NCBI GenBank assembly: GCA_015233615.1
Contig: JADFXJ010000025.1
Location: 1 to 39,539, forward strand
DNA: 39,539 nucleotides
From: Nitrospirota bacterium
GTDB taxonomy: Bacteria; Nitrospirota; Thermodesulfovibrionia; Thermodesulfovibrionales; Magnetobacteriaceae
Direction: 5' to 3'
Shown here: positions 4,482-19,096 of the stretch, piece after piece
How positions within the stretch are numbered: the first letter of the stretch is position 1
How the letters are laid out: each line of letters begins with the position of its first letter
Made by a program: the position numbers and the translations under genes
The notes under the pieces: model-generated
What the model saw: only the letters and a program-made list of their open reading frames with translations
The model's database searches: none
What the model was told of the DNA's origin: nothing

Positions 4482-7400
4482 ATGCCGAATACTAATCTGG
4501 CAAAGATTACGGCTCCTCGCCTTCACATGGTAATGGAGCGGAAAAGGTGTTTTCAGATTGTCGATACCGCCCTGGATAAATCCGTTGTATGGGTATCGGC
4601 GCCGGGCGGCTCCGGAAAAACTACGTTAGTCGCGAGCTATCTCAATAGCAGGAAGGTTCATCAACTGTGGTATCGTATAGATGAAAGAGACATCGACGTC
4701 GCGACGTTTTTCCAATACATAAAACAGGGCGTTAAAATGCAAACGCCCACAAAGCCTACGGCATTGCCCGATTTCACGCCGGACCACTTCAGAGATATTA
4801 ACTCATTCACGATGATGTACTTCGAAAGAATATTCGAAGAATTAAAACCTCCTTACGTACTGGTTTTTGACGATTATCAGGATCTTCCGGCCGACTCGGC
4901 GTTTCACGAGATGCTTTGCAAGGGCCTGTATTTATTGCCTGAAGGCATACCCGAAGGAGTAAAAATCATCTTGATAAGCAGGGGAGAGCCTCCGCCCGCA
5001 TACGTTCGGCTGCTGGCAAACGGAAAGATAAACTTCGTCGGTTGGGACGAGGTAAGATTCACTTTGGACGAAACATGGGAGTTCATAAAAAGTGGTACGC
5101 GATATACCGTCGAGGATGGCGTAGTCGAAAAGTTATACGATGAAACGGGCGGCTGGGTAGCAGGTTTGATACTGGCAATCGGGCAGATTGACAAAACAAA
5201 GAACACCGCTCTTTACAAAAGTGCGACTACACGTGAAATATTGTTCGATTATTTTTCGCGGGAGATATTTGGAACTATAGATAAAGAAGTTCGGGAACTT
5301 TTGCTTAAAACAGCTTATTTACCAGAGTTTAACGTTGAAATGGCAAAGAGGATATCGGTAAACGCGCAAACCGAAAGAGTCCTGACGCGGGAAAACAAAC
5401 AGTACTTTATTATGGAAAGACATGTAAACGATGACGTCATATTTAGCTATCATGCATTATTCAGGGATTTTTTATTAAAGCGATCAAAAGACTACTATGG
5501 ACAAAAGGCAGATGAGATAATATTACAGGCAGCGGATATTTTAGAGGAATACGGGTACGTCGAAGAAAGTGCCCGACTGCTTATCGAAATAAAACATTGG
5601 GAAAGACTTGAACGCTTAATGCTTAAGAACGTGCCGGATTTGATTGCCATTGGAAGAAACAATATTGCCGATAGTTGGTTTTCCCTTATTCCGGATGAAT
5701 TTGTACGACAACACCCGTGGCTCATGTACTGGCATGGCATGAACAGGTTGTCTCTAAACCCGCAGGAGGCCCGCACGATATTAGAAGCCGTATATGTCTT
5801 ATTCACAAAGATACACGATTCGGAGGGCCGGCTCCTGACGTTATGTGCCGTAATCAAGACTTTTATGTTCGAATGGAAGAATTTTTACCCGCTTGACTAC
5901 TGGATAAAAGAGTTCGAAGACGAATTGATCGAAGCATATAGAAACACCGGATCTATTCAGATCAGGGAAGAGGTAGTGTCAAGTATTGTGGCGGCGTTTA
6001 TTTTCCGTAAACCCGGCCACAGAGATATGGATTATTGGTTAACTGAGGCCGAGGAGATTGTACGGAATTCTAAAGACACCGAAAAACGAATGTTTATCGG
6101 CTATAATATCACCCTTTACTACCTATGGTCCGGTTTGATATTTAAAGCCGGCCGTATCGTGGAGATATTGTCACCTCTGTACGGAAAAACAAAAAAGTAT
6201 CCGCTGCTGAAATTGATGTGTCTGAGAGCGGAAGTCTTGTATAGATGCTATAGAGCTTCTTATAAAAAGGCCATTAAAACCGTTGAGGAAGGATTCGGGG
6301 TTGCGGAGGAAACAGGCATTCACCTGATGGATATGATGTTGTTAGGGGTGGGTATTTATGCTTCTGTTCCTGCCGGGGATAATGAGAGAGCGCAGAGGTA
6401 TCTGCAAAAGATGGAGTCTTGCATGGAAGGTCTCCAATGTTATGGAGCATGCTATTATCAGATAGCATCTCTGGTTGCAATTGCTAACGGTAATATTTCC
6501 TCCGCAATCGAACATGCCGAAAAACACCTGGCCATTATGGAACAACAGGGTAATCAATTAATGATGATAGTTCATAAATATAATTTTGCGCATTTATTAA
6601 TAGAGGCGGGGCGTTATGATGAAGCCCGTCGGTACTTAAGGGATATCGAGAGAATCGGTGAGATTACAAAGAGTATGATGCCCCCTTATTATTCTTCTAT
6701 GGCCGAAGCCCTTATCGCTTTAAAAAATAATGACATAAAACAATTTGCGGATAGATTCGAAAATTCCGTCAAGTTGGCTGAAGTATCGGGAATGAGGTGG
6801 ATAACGCCTTTTAGGAAACCCGTGGATTTATTATGTAAAGCGGCTCTCGATAGAGAAGTTCAAGTCGATTATGTAAAGGAATTGATAAGGCTCCATAATC
6901 TCACACCGCACGAACGGATAATAGAAAACTGGCCATATCCTCTTAAAATCTACACCTTTGGGAGATTTTCGATTGAAAAAGACGGCAAACCCGTCGAGTT
7001 CAAAGGCAAGGTGCAGAAGATACCTCTATTATTGCTTAAAGTGTTGGTAGCGTCAGGCGGCACGAGCGTCGGTATAGAAAACATATCCGATACCTTGTGG
7101 CCGGAGGTCGATGGCGATACGGCTAAAATATCTTTTAACACCACCATGCATCGTCTTCGCAAGTTGCTAAGCGATAGTGACGACGTGGTCTTGATTTCTG
7201 ACGGCCACGCCACGCTTAATCAGAATTATTGCTGGACGGACGTGTGGGCCTTCGAAAGTTTATGTGGTAAGGTTGAAAATATGTGTAAAAATCGCATAAA
7301 AAAAGATCCTGAAGAAACGGATGATTACCAGGAGGCATGGGGGTTGCTTATTAAAGCATTAGATCTCTACAAAGGACACTTTTTTGAAACCGAATCGGAC

Positions 7401-7733
7401 TTGCAGTGGGCGTTAACTACTCGTGAACGCTTGAAAAGTAAGTTTGTAGATATCTTGCTTAACATGGGAATATGGTGTGAGGAGGCCGCCCAATCGGAAA
7501 ACGCAATAGAATGTTACAATAAAGGCATATGGATAGAACCTCATGCCGAGGCGTTTTATCAGAATCTTATACTATGCCGTCTTCGTCTTGGCCATTATGC
7601 CGAGGCTTTGCAGGCGTACGAACGGTGCCGTGATGAGCTTTCCGCTGCTTTTGGTATAGAGCCGTCGGAAAAAACAAAGAAAATTATCGATTCTTTAAGA
7701 GAAAATCGACGGAAGCACAATCCTGCATATTAA
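4482..7733 (+). CDS. Giant ATPase-TPR-SARP/BTAD transcriptional regulator, copy 1
   Basis: This is a 1083-residue STAND/MalT-like regulator. The N-terminus has a P-loop (APGGSGKTTL, about 40-49) and a Walker-B-like FDDYQDLP (about 128-135), followed by the ETGGWVAGL arm typical of MalT-class ATPases. A long helical TPR-like region spans about 340-800. From about 820 a winged-helix SARP/OmpR-type DNA-binding domain (IYTFGRFSIEKDGKPV ... ISDTLWPE) is followed by a bacterial transcriptional activator domain (about 930-1070, ending AYERCRDELSAAFGIEPS). The family uses nucleotide binding and TPR ligand sensing to control DNA binding. A strong GAGGGGAG ribosome site precedes the ATG. It is paralogous to the next gene (44 bp away). 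The ligand and target genes are unknown; the upstream hydrolase is a possible partner. Confidence 0.88.
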   Translation: MPNTNLAKITAPRLHMVMERKRCFQIVDTALDKSVVWVSAPGGSGKTTLVASYLNSRKVHQLWYRIDERDIDVATFFQYIKQGVKMQTPTKPTALPDFTPDHFRDINSFTMMYFERIFEELKPPYVLVFDDYQDLPADSAFHEMLCKGLYLLPEGIPEGVKIILISRGEPPPAYVRLLANGKINFVGWDEVRFTLDETWEFIKSGTRYTVEDGVVEKLYDETGGWVAGLILAIGQIDKTKNTALYKSATTREILFDYFSREIFGTIDKEVRELLLKTAYLPEFNVEMAKRISVNAQTERVLTRENKQYFIMERHVNDDVIFSYHALFRDFLLKRSKDYYGQKADEIILQAADILEEYGYVEESARLLIEIKHWERLERLMLKNVPDLIAIGRNNIADSWFSLIPDEFVRQHPWLMYWHGMNRLSLNPQEARTILEAVYVLFTKIHDSEGRLLTLCAVIKTFMFEWKNFYPLDYWIKEFEDELIEAYRNTGSIQIREEVVSSIVAAFIFRKPGHRDMDYWLTEAEEIVRNSKDTEKRMFIGYNITLYYLWSGLIFKAGRIVEILSPLYGKTKKYPLLKLMCLRAEVLYRCYRASYKKAIKTVEEGFGVAEETGIHLMDMMLLGVGIYASVPAGDNERAQRYLQKMESCMEGLQCYGACYYQIASLVAIANGNISSAIEHAEKHLAIMEQQGNQLMMIVHKYNFAHLLIEAGRYDEARRYLRDIERIGEITKSMMPPYYSSMAEALIALKNNDIKQFADRFENSVKLAEVSGMRWITPFRKPVDLLCKAALDREVQVDYVKELIRLHNLTPHERIIENWPYPLKIYTFGRFSIEKDGKPVEFKGKVQKIPLLLLKVLVASGGTSVGIENISDTLWPEVDGDTAKISFNTTMHRLRKLLSDSDDVVLISDGHATLNQNYCWTDVWAFESLCGKVENMCKNRIKKDPEETDDYQEAWGLLIKALDLYKGHFFETESDLQWALTTRERLKSKFVDILLNMGIWCEEAAQSENAIECYNKGIWIEPHAEAFYQNLILCRLRLGHYAEALQAYERCRDELSAAFGIEPSEKTKKIIDSLRENRRKHNPAY

Positions 7734-7777: not shown

Positions 7778-10700
7778 ATGCCGCATACTAACCTGGCAAA
7801 GGTCACGGCTCCCCGCCTTCACATGGTAATGGAGCGGAAAAGGTGTTTTCAGATTGTCGATAACGCCCTGGATAAATCCGTTGTATGGATATCGGCACCG
7901 GGCGGCTCCGGAAAAACTACGTTAGTCGCGAGTTATCTCGATAGCAGGAAGGTTCCTCAACTGTGGTATCGTATAGATGAAAGAGATATCGACGTCGCGA
8001 CGTTTTTCCAATACATAAAACAGGGCGTTAAGATGCAAACGCCCGCAAAGCCTGCGGCATTGCCCGATTTCACGCCTGATCACTTCAAAGATATTAATTC
8101 ATTCACGACGATGTACTTCGAAAGACTATTCGAAGCATTAAAACCTCCTTACGTACTGGTTTTTGACGATTATCAGGATCTTCCGGCCGACTCGGCGTTT
8201 CACGAGATGCTTTGCAAGGGCCTGTATTTATTGCCTGAAGGCATACCCGAAGGAGTAAAAATCATCTTGATAAGCAGGGGAGAGCCTCCGCCCGCATACG
8301 TTCGGCTGCTGGCAAACGGAAAGATAAACTTCGTCGGTTGGGACGAGGTAAGATTCACTTTGGACGAAACATGGGAGTTCATAAAAAGTGGTACGCGATA
8401 TACCGTCGAGGATGGCGTAGTCGAAAAGTTATACGATGAAACGGGCGGCTGGGTAGCAGGTTTGATACTGGCAATCGGGCAGATTGACAAAACAAAGAAC
8501 ACCGCTCTTTACAAAAGTGCGACTACACGTGAAATATTGTTCGATTATTTTTCGCGGGAGATATTTGGAACTATAGATAAAGAAGTTCGGGAACTTTTGC
8601 TTAAAACAGCTTATTTACCAGAGTTTAACGTTGAAATGGCAAAGAGGATATCGGTAAACGCGCAAACCGAAAGAGTCCTGACGCGGGAAAACAAACAGTA
8701 CTTTATTATGGAAAGACATGTAAACGATGACGTCATATTTAGTTACCATGCATTATTCAGGGATTTTTTATTAAAGCGCTCAAAAGACTACTATGGACAA
8801 AAGGCAGATGAGATAATATTACAGGCGGCGGACATTTTAGAGGAATACGGGTACGTCGAAGAAAGCGCCCGACTGCTTATTGAAATAAAACATTGGGAAA
8901 GGTTTGAACGGTTAATGCTTAAGAACGTACCGGATTTGATTGCCAATGGAAGAAACAATATTGCCGATAGTTGGTTTTCCCATATGCCGGATGAATTTGT
9001 ACGACAACACCCGTGGCTCATGTACTGGCATGGCATGAACAGGTTGTCTCTAAACCCGCAGGAGGCCCGCACGATATTAGAAGCCGTATATGTCTTATTC
9101 ACAAAGATACACGATTCGGAGGGCCGGCTCCTGACGTTATGTGCCGTAATCAAGACTTTTATGTTCGAATGGAAGAATTTTTACCCGCTTGACTACTGGA
9201 TAAAAGAGTTCGAAGACGAATTGATCGAAGCATATAGAAACACCGGATCTATTCAGATCAGGGAAGAGGTAGTGTCAAGTATTGTGGCGGCACTCATGTT
9301 TCGTCAACCGGGGCATAGAGATATGGATTATTGGTTATCGGAGGCAGAGGAGATTGTACGGAATTCCAAGGACACCGAAAAACGGATGTTTATTGGCTAT
9401 AATATCATCCTTTACTATCTGTGGTCAGGTTTGATATTTAAAGCCGACCTTATCGTAGAAATATTGTCGCCTCTGTACAGAAAAACAAAAAAGTATCCCA
9501 TGTTGAAATTGATTTGCCTAAGAACGGAATCAGTGTACAGATGCTATGAAGGTTCTTTTAAACAGGCCATTAAAACCGTTGGCGAAGGCCTTGCGGTTGC
9601 CAACGATACAGGCATACATTTGATAGATATAATGTTGTTAGGGGTAGGTATTTATGCTTCTCTTTGTTTGGGTGATAACGAAATAGCTGGAGAATATCTG
9701 CAAAAGATGGTGTCCACACTGGAAAGTACCCAATGTTATGGATCGTTCTATTATCAGATGGCTTCTCTGGTTGCGCTTGCTAACGGTAATATTCCATCCG
9801 CGATTGAACATGCAGAAAGACACGCTGCAATCTCGGAACAATCGGGCTGCCAAATAATGATGATACCTCATAAAAGTATTATTGCCTATTTATTAGTAGA
9901 GGCGGGGCGGTATGATGAAGCACGGCAGTATTTAAGGGACGTCGAGAGAATCGGAGCTATTACAAGGAGTATACTTCCCTTTTTGTGGTCTTCCGCGGAT
10001 GAATCGCTTATCGCACTGAATAATAATGATATAAAACAATTTGCCGATAGATTTGAAAATACCGTTAAATTATCGAAAAAGTTGGGAGTGAGGTGGATAT
10101 ATCCTTTAAAGAAATCCGTAGATTTAGTATGTAAAGCGGCACTTGAGAGAGGAATTCAAGTCAATTATGTAAAGGAATTAATAAGGCTTCATAATCTTGC
10201 ACCGAACGGCCGGTTGATAGAAAACTGGCCATATCCACTTAAAATTTACACCTTTGGAAGATTTTCGATTGAAAAAGACGGCAACCCCGTCAGGTTCAGA
10301 GGCAAGGTGCAGAAGATACCTCTCTTAATGCTTAAAGTGTTGGTAGCGTCAGGCGGCACGAGCGTCGGTATCGAAAACATATCCGATACCTTATGGCCGG
10401 AGGCCGACGGCGATACGGCTAACAAATCTTTTAACACCACTATGTATCGTCTTCGCAAGTTTCTATGCGACGATAAAGACGTAATTTTGATTTCGGAAGG
10501 CCACGCCACGCTTAATCAGAATTATTGCTGGACGGACGTGTGGGCCTTCGAAAGTTTATGTGTCAAGGTTGAAAATATGTATAAAAATCGTACTAAAAGC
10601 GGTACTGAAGAAACGAATGATTACTCAGATGCGTGGGGTTTGCTTATTAAGGCATTGGCGCTCTATAAGGGACACTTTTTCGAAAACGAAGCGGACTGCC

Positions 10701-10996
10701 CGTGGGCGTTAACTACCCGTGAACGCTTAAAAAGCAAGTTTATATATATCTTGCTTAACATGGGGTTATGGAGTGAGGAGGCCGCCCAATTGGAAAACGC
10801 AATAGAATGTTACGATAAAGGTATATGGGTAGAACCTTTTACCGAGGAGTTTTATCAGAATCTAATGCTATGCCGTATTCGTCTTGGTCATTATGCCGAG
10901 GCTTTGCAGGCGTACGAACGTTGCCGTGATGAGCTTTCCGCTGCTTTTGGTATAGAGCCGTCGGAAAAAACAAAGAAAATTATCGATACTTTGTGA
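7778..10996 (+). CDS. Giant ATPase-TPR-SARP/BTAD transcriptional regulator, copy 2
   Basis: At 1072 residues it has the same architecture as the gene before it, colinear at a 3296-bp offset: P-loop APGGSGKTTL, FDDYQDLP, a TPR region, a SARP-type winged helix (about 815-905) and a BTAD domain. The start aligns exactly with that of copy 1, but the ribosome site (GATGGGTAA) is weaker. Divergence is uneven. The ATPase half is almost identical, with two stretches lacking any difference (8137-8742 and 8987-9291 against 4841-5446 and 5691-5995). The TPR sensor and the DNA-binding/BTAD part differ clearly. This suggests the two proteins share mechanism but sense different ligands or bind different sites. 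It lacks the last residues of copy 1. Confidence 0.88.
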   Translation: MPHTNLAKVTAPRLHMVMERKRCFQIVDNALDKSVVWISAPGGSGKTTLVASYLDSRKVPQLWYRIDERDIDVATFFQYIKQGVKMQTPAKPAALPDFTPDHFKDINSFTTMYFERLFEALKPPYVLVFDDYQDLPADSAFHEMLCKGLYLLPEGIPEGVKIILISRGEPPPAYVRLLANGKINFVGWDEVRFTLDETWEFIKSGTRYTVEDGVVEKLYDETGGWVAGLILAIGQIDKTKNTALYKSATTREILFDYFSREIFGTIDKEVRELLLKTAYLPEFNVEMAKRISVNAQTERVLTRENKQYFIMERHVNDDVIFSYHALFRDFLLKRSKDYYGQKADEIILQAADILEEYGYVEESARLLIEIKHWERFERLMLKNVPDLIANGRNNIADSWFSHMPDEFVRQHPWLMYWHGMNRLSLNPQEARTILEAVYVLFTKIHDSEGRLLTLCAVIKTFMFEWKNFYPLDYWIKEFEDELIEAYRNTGSIQIREEVVSSIVAALMFRQPGHRDMDYWLSEAEEIVRNSKDTEKRMFIGYNIILYYLWSGLIFKADLIVEILSPLYRKTKKYPMLKLICLRTESVYRCYEGSFKQAIKTVGEGLAVANDTGIHLIDIMLLGVGIYASLCLGDNEIAGEYLQKMVSTLESTQCYGSFYYQMASLVALANGNIPSAIEHAERHAAISEQSGCQIMMIPHKSIIAYLLVEAGRYDEARQYLRDVERIGAITRSILPFLWSSADESLIALNNNDIKQFADRFENTVKLSKKLGVRWIYPLKKSVDLVCKAALERGIQVNYVKELIRLHNLAPNGRLIENWPYPLKIYTFGRFSIEKDGNPVRFRGKVQKIPLLMLKVLVASGGTSVGIENISDTLWPEADGDTANKSFNTTMYRLRKFLCDDKDVILISEGHATLNQNYCWTDVWAFESLCVKVENMYKNRTKSGTEETNDYSDAWGLLIKALALYKGHFFENEADCPWALTTRERLKSKFIYILLNMGLWSEEAAQLENAIECYDKGIWVEPFTEEFYQNLMLCRIRLGHYAEALQAYERCRDELSAAFGIEPSEKTKKIIDTL

Positions 10997-14617: not shown

Positions 14618-16537
14618 CTACGCCCTGGCCGCGAAAAGCTGCTTGGTGTCTAAAAGTATTTTTATTCCAGCCTCCATGTTGGCCATGGCAAGAATGTAGT
14701 TGTTGCTGCCGTTGTTCTTGTAAGAAGGCGGTTCTTCTATATGCTCGGCCTTTATGCTCAGCACGTCCGAGACGGAGTCGACGATAACCCCTATCTGGTC
14801 TACTATGTTGTTAACCTCGTTTTCGAGCACTATTATCCTGGCGTGGCTTTCGTCTTCTATGCTTTCGATACCAAGCTTATACCTTAGATCCACTATGGGA
14901 ATAATCCTGTCTCTGAGGTTTACTATGCCCTTGACGAAGGATGGGGCTTTTGGCATGGACCTGATGGCCATCATCCTTACGATCTCCCTGACCCATAGTA
15001 TATCTATGCCGTATTCCTGGCCGTTAAGCGTGAATATGAGATACTGGCCTTCCTTGTTCAGATTGGTCTTGGATACGAAGCCTTCCTTTTGCCTGCTGAC
15101 TATATCGCCAACCATGGAGGAAATTTCCCGTATATTCGAGCGTCGGGCCACGAAACCGGACTCCTTGCAGGCCAGCTTTGCAAACCTCGTATCTACGAAC
15201 CCGCTAAGATCTATGATAGTGCCTATGCCCATCTGGTGTACCATGTACTGTTGTATTCTGTCGAGATCATCCACCACGGGGAAGAGATCGTTGGTTTTTA
15301 TACCCTGCGCTTCCTTGAGGACGTTTTTCAGAACGGGTACTTTCAGATTCAGCGTCTTATTCGGGTCGAGGAAGTTGACGCCTATTTCTGCGGCTGTCTC
15401 GGGCTTTTCCCCGATAAACTTGCCGGCTTCCACGAGAAAGGTGGTAAACTCCTGAACCGCATCCGGGTACTGGTTTATGATCTCGTCCCTGATGGTGACC
15501 ACGCAGCAGGGGTGGGATTCCCATAGCTCACCGGACAAAAAGAGCAGATCGGCAATTCCTTCGGCTATCGCTTTCGTGCCAAGCGGCTCGGCCACGAGGT
15601 AACCGCAAGCCTCCGGATTCGAGGCTAAAAACTCCGGCATTTTCACGGGAGGCACCACCTCGAAGAGGACGTCGAAATCGCCTCTTCCGAAAAACCCGGG
15701 TTTAAGCCCTATCTGGGTCAAAAACATGTGGGCCAGCATGTGGTGTATAGACATCTCGTGGGGCAGGTAGAAGGTCTTGCCCCTGAAGAACTCCTTCAGG
15801 TCTTTGCCTTTTTCCTCGCTCTTTTTCAGAACCGAGATGCTCCCGTTTTTGTGGGCGAAGAGGACTAACTTTATAGGTACGCCGAAACCGTAGAGATCCA
15901 TGGCTATGGGGGCAAGGACGAAGGCCGCGTCTACGGAGCCCTTTTCGAGAGCACCCTGCAGAGAGTTCCAGCTTGGCATGCAGCTAGTCTGAAGTTCAAA
16001 ATGCTTTGGGGCAATCTTACCGGACTCTATGAGATTTTTAAGTACCCCCAGGGTAAGGTGATCGGTTATCTGTATATGGGCCACGTTGAGCAGGAGCTTA
16101 CCTCCTGGCGTGGTTTGAGGTACGAGAGGCTTTGACGTGTCGGCCTTCTTGCCGCCCGAAAAAGTATCGTCTATGAGTTGCCTGAGTTCGTCGGGCCCAA
16201 AGGGTTTCGTAATGAAGTTGCTGACGCCTGCCTCCGTGGCTGCGGCAGCCTGCTTTTTTTCGCCCCTGGCGGTGGCCATTATGAAGGGGACGTTCGTTGT
16301 CGGACCATTTGACCTCACCCATACCAGAAACTCGTATCCGTCCATGACGGGCATGTTCCAGTCGCTTAATATGAGGCCTACGTCGCTGTTTTCCTGAAGC
16401 TTTGCTATCGCGTTTTGCCCGTTGTCCGCCTCTATTACGTTGGTAAAACCTACGTCGACGAGGGCCTTTTTTTGCATCTTGCGTGCAACCTTCGAGTCCT
16501 CGACCAACAAAACCTTTATATTTCTGTCAACTGGCAT
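14618..16537 (-). CDS. Receiver - NMT1-type solute-binding - CheW fusion protein (CheV-like adaptor)
   Basis: The 639 residues divide into three parts. Residues 5-125 are a receiver (Asp59 in LSDWNMPV, Thr in MATARG, Lys in TKPFGPDE). Residues about 148-430 resemble an NMT1/SsuA/NrtA periplasmic-type ligand-binding domain (HIQITDHLTLGVLKNLI, then GSVDAAFVLAPIAMDL, PHEMSIHHMLAHM, ACGYLVAEPLGTKAIAEG). Residues about 495-639 are a CheW domain (YLIFTLNGQEYGIDI, VREIV, GIVNLRDRIIPIVDLR). There is no signal peptide, so the binding domain must work in the cytoplasm. CheV (CheW plus receiver, in the opposite order) couples chemoreceptors to CheA, and here a small-molecule sensor seems to be added. 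A GGGGG ribosome site lies 6 bp before the ATG. No CheA, receptor or transporter gene is nearby. Confidence 0.88.
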   Translation of the reverse strand: MPVDRNIKVLLVEDSKVARKMQKKALVDVGFTNVIEADNGQNAIAKLQENSDVGLILSDWNMPVMDGYEFLVWVRSNGPTTNVPFIMATARGEKKQAAAATEAGVSNFITKPFGPDELRQLIDDTFSGGKKADTSKPLVPQTTPGGKLLLNVAHIQITDHLTLGVLKNLIESGKIAPKHFELQTSCMPSWNSLQGALEKGSVDAAFVLAPIAMDLYGFGVPIKLVLFAHKNGSISVLKKSEEKGKDLKEFFRGKTFYLPHEMSIHHMLAHMFLTQIGLKPGFFGRGDFDVLFEVVPPVKMPEFLASNPEACGYLVAEPLGTKAIAEGIADLLFLSGELWESHPCCVVTIRDEIINQYPDAVQEFTTFLVEAGKFIGEKPETAAEIGVNFLDPNKTLNLKVPVLKNVLKEAQGIKTNDLFPVVDDLDRIQQYMVHQMGIGTIIDLSGFVDTRFAKLACKESGFVARRSNIREISSMVGDIVSRQKEGFVSKTNLNKEGQYLIFTLNGQEYGIDILWVREIVRMMAIRSMPKAPSFVKGIVNLRDRIIPIVDLRYKLGIESIEDESHARIIVLENEVNNIVDQIGVIVDSVSDVLSIKAEHIEEPPSYKNNGSNNYILAMANMEAGIKILLDTKQLFAARA

Positions 16538-16732: not shown

Positions 16733-17560
16733 TCATTTTAATAGGAAATATTTGAAGACTATAAAAAAAAGCACAACTTCGAAGCACAGGGCCACACTCA
16801 GGATGCCCTTGGCCGGCAAAAGCAGCTTAGGTATGACGCATGCAAAGGTAGAGGCCAGGAGTTGGCCTGACTCCTCGAGTGCGTCTACGAACGTGCCGAG
16901 TCTTCTTTGCCTGGCCTCGCCGCTTGTACCCGGGGTGATTTCTGTCTCGCTTTCGGCATCACTATAGTCGGTTCTTTTCAAAAATGACTCTGTAGCAATG
17001 GAGAGATACTTCGTCGAGTGCAGGATTCCCGGTTCGGAGAGAACCAGTACCGGAATGGAAAAGATTCCAAGCCGCTTTTTCATGGCCTTCTCTATGCACG
17101 GGGCTATCGTCACGTAGCTTATTCCCTGTATGATTTCCGCAAGAGATGCAGTTGCGGAGGCATTCGCTTTGTTTTCCTCCATGTCCTTTACCACCTGTTT
17201 GCCGATGTCCAGCGAGTAGTTGAGCATTTGAGTCGTACCGTTTAAAAAACGTCGTATGGTGGTCATTATTCCAATGGAAAGGCCTATTGCCAGGTTTCCC
17301 ACGTTGCCCGGAATGAACAGCAGTAAGGCACCGTAGGGGTTGGCTCCGGTGATGGCTATATAGGCCATAACGATAACGTTGAATACGGCTATGGATATCA
17401 ATACTGGTTTTGCCACGGATGTGATTAACGACAGGGGAGTTACCAGGGTACAGGTGGCCTTGTTGATATTTTCGTCCAATGACGGGTCCCTGTACTTATT
17501 GAAATCGATACCGGTTTTTTTTATTAACTTTTCGCCGGCCCTTTTTATCTTTCCATACAT
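16733..17560 (-). CDS. Unrecognised membrane protein
   Basis: I do not recognise this 275-residue protein. It has a basic N-terminus, two or three hydrophobic segments at about 40-110 (LISIAVFNVIVMAYIAI; ALLLFIPGNVGNLAIGLSIG), a helical middle part and a final hydrophobic helix (about 248-275) ending in FKYFLLK. The region about 215-230 is acidic and Ser/Thr/Gly rich. AAGGAG lies 7 bp before the ATG. The start is only about 21 bp after the stop of the cysteine desulfurase fusion, so it is probably its operon partner. A link to sulfur trafficking is inference from position only. Confidence 0.65.
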   Translation of the reverse strand: MYGKIKRAGEKLIKKTGIDFNKYRDPSLDENINKATCTLVTPLSLITSVAKPVLISIAVFNVIVMAYIAITGANPYGALLLFIPGNVGNLAIGLSIGIMTTIRRFLNGTTQMLNYSLDIGKQVVKDMEENKANASATASLAEIIQGISYVTIAPCIEKAMKKRLGIFSIPVLVLSEPGILHSTKYLSIATESFLKRTDYSDAESETEITPGTSGEARQRRLGTFVDALEESGQLLASTFACVIPKLLLPAKGILSVALCFEVVLFFIVFKYFLLK

Positions 17561-17581: not shown

Positions 17582-19096
17582 TTACCGGGGGTTACCGAAC
17601 TTCTCTTTCGAATTCCGTTGCCCTCTGTCGAGCTGCCTTAATATGTCGGGCAGATACCTGAAGAGGTAGTCGAGGGCCTCCGTAGTGGTGTTCATGCCAA
17701 AGCTGAAACGTATTACCCCGTACTTTTCGGTGTCTATTCCTAATGCCCTGATCACGTGGGATGCCTCAACACGTCCGGAACTGCAAGCCGAACCTGATGA
17801 TACGTATACTCCTATCTGGTTTAGGCTAAGGAGCAATGAGCCGCTGTCTATGCCAGGAAATCCGATACTCAGGTTGTTTGGGAGTCGTTTTTCTAAAGAT
17901 CCATTGACGATGAATCCGGAGTCGGCGTCTTTCAACCCTGCAAGGAAATAGTTTCTCAGTGCAACGAGCCGCTCCCTCTCCCTGTCCATTTCTTCGTGGG
18001 CAAGAGTTGCGGCCAGGCCGAAGGCCATAATAGAGGCCACGTTTTCCGTGCCGGCCCTTAAGCCGCCTTCCTGGTCTCCACCATGGATGAGGGGGACAAG
18101 CTCAAAACCTTTTTCCACGTAGAGTGCTCCGACCCCCTTGGGAGCGTAAATCTTATGTCCGGACATGGACATGAGGCTTATGCCCATCTTCCCGGGGCTT
18201 AGCGGCATCTTGCCGAAGGCCTGTACTGCGTCAACCATTAACGGTACTCCTTTTTCCCGGCATATGGCCCCTATCTCCCCGATGGGATTAACGGTGCCTA
18301 TCTCGTTGTTGGCAGCCATGACGGCTACGAGCAACGTGTCCGGTCGCAGTGTGTTGCGCACGTCTTGTGCACGTACCACGCCATCGCCGTCTACGCCTAA
18401 GTACGTGGCCTCAAAACCCAGACCTTCGAGGTACCCGACTGTTTTCAATACGGAGGAGTGCTCCGTAGCACTGGTTATGATGTGGCCTTTCGAAGCCATG
18501 TGCTTAAAGGCCACTCCCTTTATGGCCAGATTATTGGCCTCGGAGCCGCTGCCGGTAAATACTATCTCGTCGTCCAACGCGTCGATGCATTGGCTGATCT
18601 GATAACGGGCCTTTTGGAGCGTGTCGTAGGCTCTCTTACCGAGGGACGTGCTGCTCTGAGGGTTTCCGAAGTCTTTGCCCAAATTGCCGACCGAATTGCT
18701 GCCAAAATTACCGCTAAAGTTGCAGGATGATTGGTGGCAGAAGCTGATAAGGGCCTCCGTTACCTCTTTCCGCAGGTACGTAGTGGCGTTGTGGTCCAGG
18801 TAGACGTCCATGCGGTCTTTGACGTTTACACTGGCTATCGGCTTGCATCCGTTGTCGGTGGATTGTATCGGTATTCCTACCCAGTTGTAGATGGAGTTAA
18901 GGCCGTGTGGGAAGAGCCTTTCTATATCCTCTTTCGTTAGGCCGGTGTTTTTTCTTATGTTCTGGTAAAGTGGGCCCACCCTGTGCTTTTCGTAGTGCTT
19001 GTGGGCGTACGTGAGTACGCGCATGTGCTCCCCGGTAAGGGTGGTGCCTGTTTTCCTGGCCATTAGGTTTATCATGGCCTTATTCATGTTATTCAT
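17582..19096 (-). CDS. Cysteine desulfurase with N-terminal DsrC/TusE-like domain
   Basis: This 504-residue fusion starts with a DsrC/TusE-like domain at about 18-90: LTGEHMRVLTYAHKHYEKH, then VGPLYQNIRK, LFPHGLNSIYNWVGIP and a conserved-type Cys84 in NGCKP. Only the terminal DsrC cysteine is kept, as in TusE. Residues about 97-480 are an aminotransferase-V cysteine desulfurase of NifS/IscS type: DHNATTYL, ANNEIGTVNPIG, VDAVQAFGKMPL, PLP-binding Lys315 in SGHKIYAPKG, LRAGTENVA and active-site Cys438 in SSGSACSSGR. It should convert cysteine to alanine and form a persulfide. The fused domain could accept that sulfur directly. An unusual Gly/Asn/Phe-rich insertion (about 123-146) interrupts the usual FGNP-region loop. 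Upstream is a DUF169 gene (38 bp); downstream is a membrane protein. The tail beyond about 480 is hydrophilic. Confidence 0.88.
   Translation of the reverse strand: MNNMNKAMINLMARKTGTTLTGEHMRVLTYAHKHYEKHRVGPLYQNIRKNTGLTKEDIERLFPHGLNSIYNWVGIPIQSTDNGCKPIASVNVKDRMDVYLDHNATTYLRKEVTEALISFCHQSSCNFSGNFGSNSVGNLGKDFGNPQSSTSLGKRAYDTLQKARYQISQCIDALDDEIVFTGSGSEANNLAIKGVAFKHMASKGHIITSATEHSSVLKTVGYLEGLGFEATYLGVDGDGVVRAQDVRNTLRPDTLLVAVMAANNEIGTVNPIGEIGAICREKGVPLMVDAVQAFGKMPLSPGKMGISLMSMSGHKIYAPKGVGALYVEKGFELVPLIHGGDQEGGLRAGTENVASIMAFGLAATLAHEEMDRERERLVALRNYFLAGLKDADSGFIVNGSLEKRLPNNLSIGFPGIDSGSLLLSLNQIGVYVSSGSACSSGRVEASHVIRALGIDTEKYGVIRFSFGMNTTTEALDYLFRYLPDILRQLDRGQRNSKEKFGNPR

Follow-up and report, generated by a model that had tools for sequence, protein, structure and literature searches.

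Sulfur relays normally run through a series of separate proteins, and this makes their single hand-overs hard to isolate. One gene in the window, by which we mean the whole stretch of 39,539 nucleotides analysed here, raises the question of whether donor and carrier of such a relay have been joined in one natural polypeptide and, if so, what the joined protein serves. The gene, P0001 (17582..19096, minus strand), encodes 504 amino acids in an uninterrupted frame, while the plus strand across the same interval is full of stops. A sequence-only reading had taken the product for a DsrC/TusE-like domain fused to a full NifS/IscS-type cysteine desulfurase, and had supposed that the fusion shortcuts the relay.

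Both halves of this domain assignment are borne out. Residues 1-97 (18806..19096, minus strand) comprise a DsrC/TusE-like helical domain and a carrier arm. The N-terminus matches the Pfam DsrC family (PF04358) with 32.3 bits (E 1.4e-7), above the curated cut-off of 24.9, and residues 2-67 of the fusion align with positions 19-91 of the 107-position profile; the beta-hairpin at the N-terminus of DsrC, which occupies about the first 18 profile positions, is absent, and the end of the domain is altered. The NCBIfam model TIGR03342 is matched weakly, at 24.8 bits and below its cut-off of 53.5, which together with the missing N-terminal part makes the domain DsrC-like rather than a bona fide free DsrC or TusE. 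A PDB sequence search with the N-domain placed solved DsrC chains on top (2v4j, 2xsj), and all 11 aligned fusion N-termini match DsrC and nothing else in Pfam (best E 1.3e-10). Moreover, a profile-profile comparison of these 11 N-termini with 12 free DsrC proteins (hhalign) gave 99.3% probability over 77 columns, a value that belongs to one pairwise comparison rather than a database search and to an alignment that stops at residue 77-78. The predicted model gives the N-domain five helices, from H3-16 to H66-72. Its closest free relatives are one-cysteine DsrC paralogues of the same phylum with the motif AYKLAGLPKPxxC (L006, L007, L019, L035, L036 and L037).

The desulfurase half, residues 98-489 (17630..18805, minus strand), scores 223 bits against Aminotran_5 and 407 bits against NifS (TIGR03402). 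The latter value lies below the NifS equivalog cut-off of 530.75 bits, and the domain belongs to the same superfamily as the nitrogenase NifS equivalog without being one. The PLP lysine, Lys315, lies in an SGHK motif (codon 18152..18154, minus strand) and the catalytic persulfide cysteine, Cys438, in an SSGSACSSG loop (codon 17783..17785, minus strand), as the sequence-only reading had placed them. The whole active-site set (His213, Asp289, Gln292, Ser312, His314, Lys315 and Cys438) is invariant in all 14 fusions now in hand. With a PLP lysine, a loop cysteine and the His/Asp/Gln/Ser set in place, this half is a complete domain of the group I (NifS/IscS) type, with cysteine desulfurase activity predicted. 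A fold search with the model of the whole fusion returned NifS/IscS-type desulfurases alone because the large domain dominates, so that this search does not probe the small domain. The desulfurase domain of the window also carries a 17-residue Gly/Asn/Ser-rich insertion around residues 123-142 (18671..18730, minus strand), which has low confidence in the predicted model and does not occur in the other ten aligned fusions.

A search for the same fusion elsewhere, suggested along with the sequence-only reading, brought up 13 further full-length homologues. A pattern scan of 84,980 species genomes yielded ten loci, every one a full fusion; by record title they belong to six Desulfobacteria-type MAGs and one each of Anaerolineae, Gemmatimonadetes, Nitrospinaceae and Ca. 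Magnetocorallium paracelense, the last a member of Nitrospirota. Three more, all in the class of G403, came from profile searches that covered about 1,200 genomes. Nine of the 13 homologues come from Desulfobacteria-type genomes. The labels of the genomes that carry the fusion with its partner gene span five bacterial phyla, a count that depends on MAG labels taken from the records, which may be wrong. Most loci are from metagenome assemblies. Chance or assembly fusion is ruled out by 14 full-length proteins of the same layout in several phyla. The fusion is nevertheless rare and patchy in distribution, being found in 2 of 396 genomes in the phylum of the window, in 9 of 390 in the class of G403 (at least the centre genome is included there by construction), in 1 of 376 in the class of the Anaerolineae MAG and in 1 of 24 in the phylum of the Nitrospinaceae MAG. 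In a tree with six other desulfurases, a small outgroup, the desulfurase domains of the fusions form one branch with 100/100 support, and a single fusion event is therefore the simplest reading. The most divergent fusion of the G403 class (L132) keeps both Cys84 and the catalytic cysteine (SACHSG); its host, G699, is a single 6.3 Mb contig and thus a finished, possibly cultured genome. No description of a DsrC-desulfurase architecture was found in the open-licence papers searched, and the fusion appears to be an undescribed domain architecture within a conserved cassette, assembled from known parts.

What the joined protein might do depends on two residues. Cys84 (codon 18845..18847, minus strand; motif x-C-K-[PK]) and Cys438 are the only cysteines present in every one of the 14 fusions. 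The sequence-only reading would have fallen had Cys84 varied among homologues; it is kept in 14 of 14, and the pair Cys84-Lys85 is invariant while the remaining positions of the arm vary. That reading had also held that the terminal DsrC cysteine alone is present. The absence of the second cysteine (CysB) stands, since its position is occupied by Thr, Asn, Ser or Ala and never by Cys, whereas the equivalence of Cys84 with the terminal cysteine (CysA) is one of position: Cys84 falls outside the profile-aligned part of the N-domain, 8 residues past the conserved Pro as against 5 in free DsrC, in an arm that is 3 residues longer. Matched in this way, Cys84 is best taken as the counterpart of CysA. 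Organisms that lack DsrAB have TusE-type proteins in which the second DsrC cysteine is likewise replaced (PMC3397948). Cys84 lies about 14 residues ahead of the start of the desulfurase domain, and the predicted model has low confidence precisely in the mobile segments 78-83 and 436-444, at the two cysteines; for the former, this is compatible with a flexible arm.

The fusion has a constant companion. A DUF169 gene (PF02596; 19135..20016, minus strand) lies 38 bp upstream of it, and in all 14 loci such a gene is found directly upstream on the same strand. Three cysteines of the cassette DUF169 protein, Cys53, Cys74 and Cys242, are invariant in all 14. Pairwise identities of the fusion and of DUF169 across pairs of loci are correlated (r = 0.82), as they should be if the two genes move as one cassette. 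In the genome of the window and in five others it is the sole DUF169 gene found, and a profile built on the cassette DUF169 proteins missed, at E 1e-5, the DUF169 proteins encoded elsewhere in the fusion-bearing genomes, which marks the cassette protein as a distinct subtype. Its predicted model is confident (pLDDT 85), and fold and sequence searches against solved structures gave no meaningful relative. The neighbourhoods of other, non-cassette DUF169 genes, inspected by eye, have no common sulfur context, and in the open-licence papers DUF169 receives no more than a brief mention, in connection with selenium, nitrate resistance and SepRS.

The sequences themselves show the domains, the two invariant cysteines Cys84 and Cys438 and the linkage to DUF169; from these we infer a transfer of persulfide, its direction, an acceptor and a physiological role. 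The fusion is probably a self-loading sulfur carrier with an intramolecular persulfide relay from Cys438 to Cys84 and thence to DUF169 or another client. The PLP-dependent half would take sulfur from L-cysteine to form a persulfide on Cys438, and the mobile Cys438 loop would pass it to Cys84, probably the first acceptor, on the flexible arm of the one-thiol DsrC/TusE-like domain, either in the same subunit or in its partner. A client would then receive the sulfur from the persulfurated arm; the best candidate is the DUF169 protein, which is encoded beside the fusion at every locus and has conserved cysteines. Most of the organisms concerned have a dissimilatory sulfur metabolism, and the relay would often belong to a response that is sensed or regulated. 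The flexible loop of IscS delivers persulfide to nearby acceptor thiols. In trans, when E. coli IscS is supplied with cysteine, A. vinosum DsrC acquires a persulfide at its terminal cysteine and nowhere else (PMC3397948). With one thiol, a carrier is unable to form the internal disulfide or trisulfide of DsrC, which favours simple hand-over over redox chemistry.

The conservation of the N-domain can also be read another way. Its globular surface (VGPxY, FPxGxNSVYxWVGIP) is conserved nearly as well as Cys84, and DsrC/TusE domains bind partners in known relays, as in TusE-MnmA and DsrC-DsrAB (PMC3397948). The domain might thus be a docking module that recruits DUF169, DsrAB/DsrMK or MnmA, with Cys438 giving up its sulfur directly and Cys84 being structural or of minor importance. 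We regard this as rather unlikely, since a mere docking surface would not need an invariant Cys84-Lys85 inside a variable, flexible arm.

Beyond DUF169, the surroundings of the fusion differ between loci. In the window, a gene at 14618..16537 (minus strand) encodes a CheV-like adaptor with a receiver, an NMT1_2 (substrate-binding-protein-like) and a CheW domain, and its homologues adjoin the cassette in L075, L076 and L078. The protein has no obvious signal peptide, and a sensor-like domain sits inside a chemotaxis adaptor. The receiver-NMT1_2-CheW layout is shared with the Anaerolineae MAG (L075), while L076 and L078 have a stand-alone NMT1 domain; in the PDB, the NMT1_2 domain has its relatives among substrate-binding proteins and among regulatory domains of transporters for nitrate and bicarbonate. 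In L070, L071, L072, L074 and L160, the cassette is bordered by a hybrid histidine kinase. Sensory genes, either hybrid histidine kinases or genes for a cytoplasmic nitrate/taurine-binding-protein-like domain, thus flank at least 9 of the 14 loci; at L069, L073, L132, L133 and L077, no such gene was recognised next to the cassette. Between the fusion and the CheV-like gene lies a gene for a 275-aa protein (16733..17560, minus strand), which looks membrane-associated by eye, matches no Pfam family and has no homologue in the other loci compared; it is probably incidental. Farther off on the plus strand, two tandem genes (4482-7733 and 7778-10996) encode large proteins of about 1,080 aa each, the first with AAA and bacterial transcriptional activator (BTAD) domains and the second similar by eye.

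The hybrid histidine kinases of five loci and the NMT1-domain proteins of four, two of them CheV-like, could mean that the DsrC-like domain is a thiol sensor or a DNA- or partner-binding switch for sulfur status, and that DUF169 and the sensory proteins make up a signalling module with it. Several observations render this distinctly improbable. The full catalytic set of the desulfurase is retained, the sensory genes vary by lineage and go unrecognised at five loci while DUF169 is constant, and the similarity of the N-domain to a helix-turn-helix family is insignificant (HTH_19, E 0.16). The invariant DUF169 partner and the sensory neighbours, neither of which the sequence-only reading had noted, do suggest that the purpose of the fusion is not simply a shortened Tus relay. 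Tentatively, and with less assurance than the self-loading carrier itself, the pair may constitute an undescribed, horizontally spread sulfur-delivery system of sulfur-metabolising bacteria, in which a single polypeptide would both generate the persulfide and carry it, with DUF169 as the acceptor or effector devoted to it and with a coupling to sensory kinases or to a cytoplasmic ligand-sensing CheV-like adaptor.

Links to sulfur metabolism are visible at some loci. In Ca. Magnetocorallium, the roughly 5 kb that follow the fusion include dsrC and dsrM-, dsrK- and dsrJ-like genes, and in L133 a qrcBCD set adjoins the cassette. DsrA scores above the cut-off in 12 of the 14 fusion genomes, which counts as weak evidence, since dsr genes are present in most of these lineages in any case; the two genomes with no DsrA above the cut-off, G408 and G409, are MAGs that may be incomplete. 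The MAG labelled Nitrospinaceae (G411; locus L152), the sole carrier among the genomes searched in its phylum, has DsrA above the cut-off.

The window's own genome encodes two further desulfurases and five free DsrC-family genes, canonical DsrC among them. On contig C130 of G000 (L023, L024, L028), two tandem DsrC-family genes diverge from the canonical copies L020 and L021, and contig C193 carries a fifth DsrC-family gene (L022). The two other desulfurases, together with the rarity of the fusion, rule out a housekeeping desulfurase. A biosynthetic role, in which the one chain would replace IscS-TusABCDE as sulfur donor for tRNA 2-thiouridine (MnmA) or another product, has a precedent in E. 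coli TusE, a single-thiol DsrC homologue that acts as the carrier next to MnmA (PMC3397948). It is very unlikely here, since a gene with two carriers among the 396 genomes of its phylum does not fit housekeeping tRNA modification, its own genome holds the other desulfurases and free DsrC-family genes, and no tRNA-modification gene was recognised in the cassette. That the fusion is a DndA/SspA-like desulfurase of phage defence or DNA phosphorothioation is more improbable still, since its matches to the PADLOC SspA and DndA models reflect the general desulfurase family (NifS scores similarly) and no Dnd or Ssp partner was found among three neighbouring window genes with PADLOC or among the neighbouring genes with Pfam.

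With donor and carrier thiol in one natural chain, the hand-over from a desulfurase to a DsrC-family domain becomes testable in one molecule with two point mutants. In addition, the invariant neighbour gives a widespread family of unknown function a testable role and, if the fusion and DUF169 do form a sulfur-delivery system, would provide the first clue to what DUF169 proteins do. From the sensory neighbours there is a hint that persulfide derived from cysteine may serve as a signal or a regulated delivery route in sulfate- and sulfur-metabolising bacteria.

Each part of the cassette can be set beside a known relative. The upstream partner is a member of DUF169 (PF02596, COG2043), of a cassette subtype of about 290 aa that keeps Cys53, Cys74 and Cys242. 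With NifS/IscS (TIGR03402, TIGR02006) the fusion shares the complete catalytic set and the fold, but it forms its own branch among the desulfurases compared, bears an N-terminal carrier domain and has DUF169 as its neighbour rather than IscU/NifU. With DsrC (PF04358/TIGR03342) it shares a homologous helical core, the LFPxG motif and a conserved late cysteine; in contrast to dissimilatory DsrC, it is without the second cysteine, so that no trisulfide chemistry is expected. TusE of the E. coli IscS-TusA-TusBCD-TusE-MnmA relay is, like the N-domain of the fusion, a one-thiol DsrC-family carrier for cysteine-derived sulfur. However, TusE is a small protein in its own right that has the N-terminal beta-hairpin and carries its terminal cysteine close to the C-terminus, whereas the fusion has lost the hairpin, has the cysteine in an internal arm and includes the donor in the same chain.
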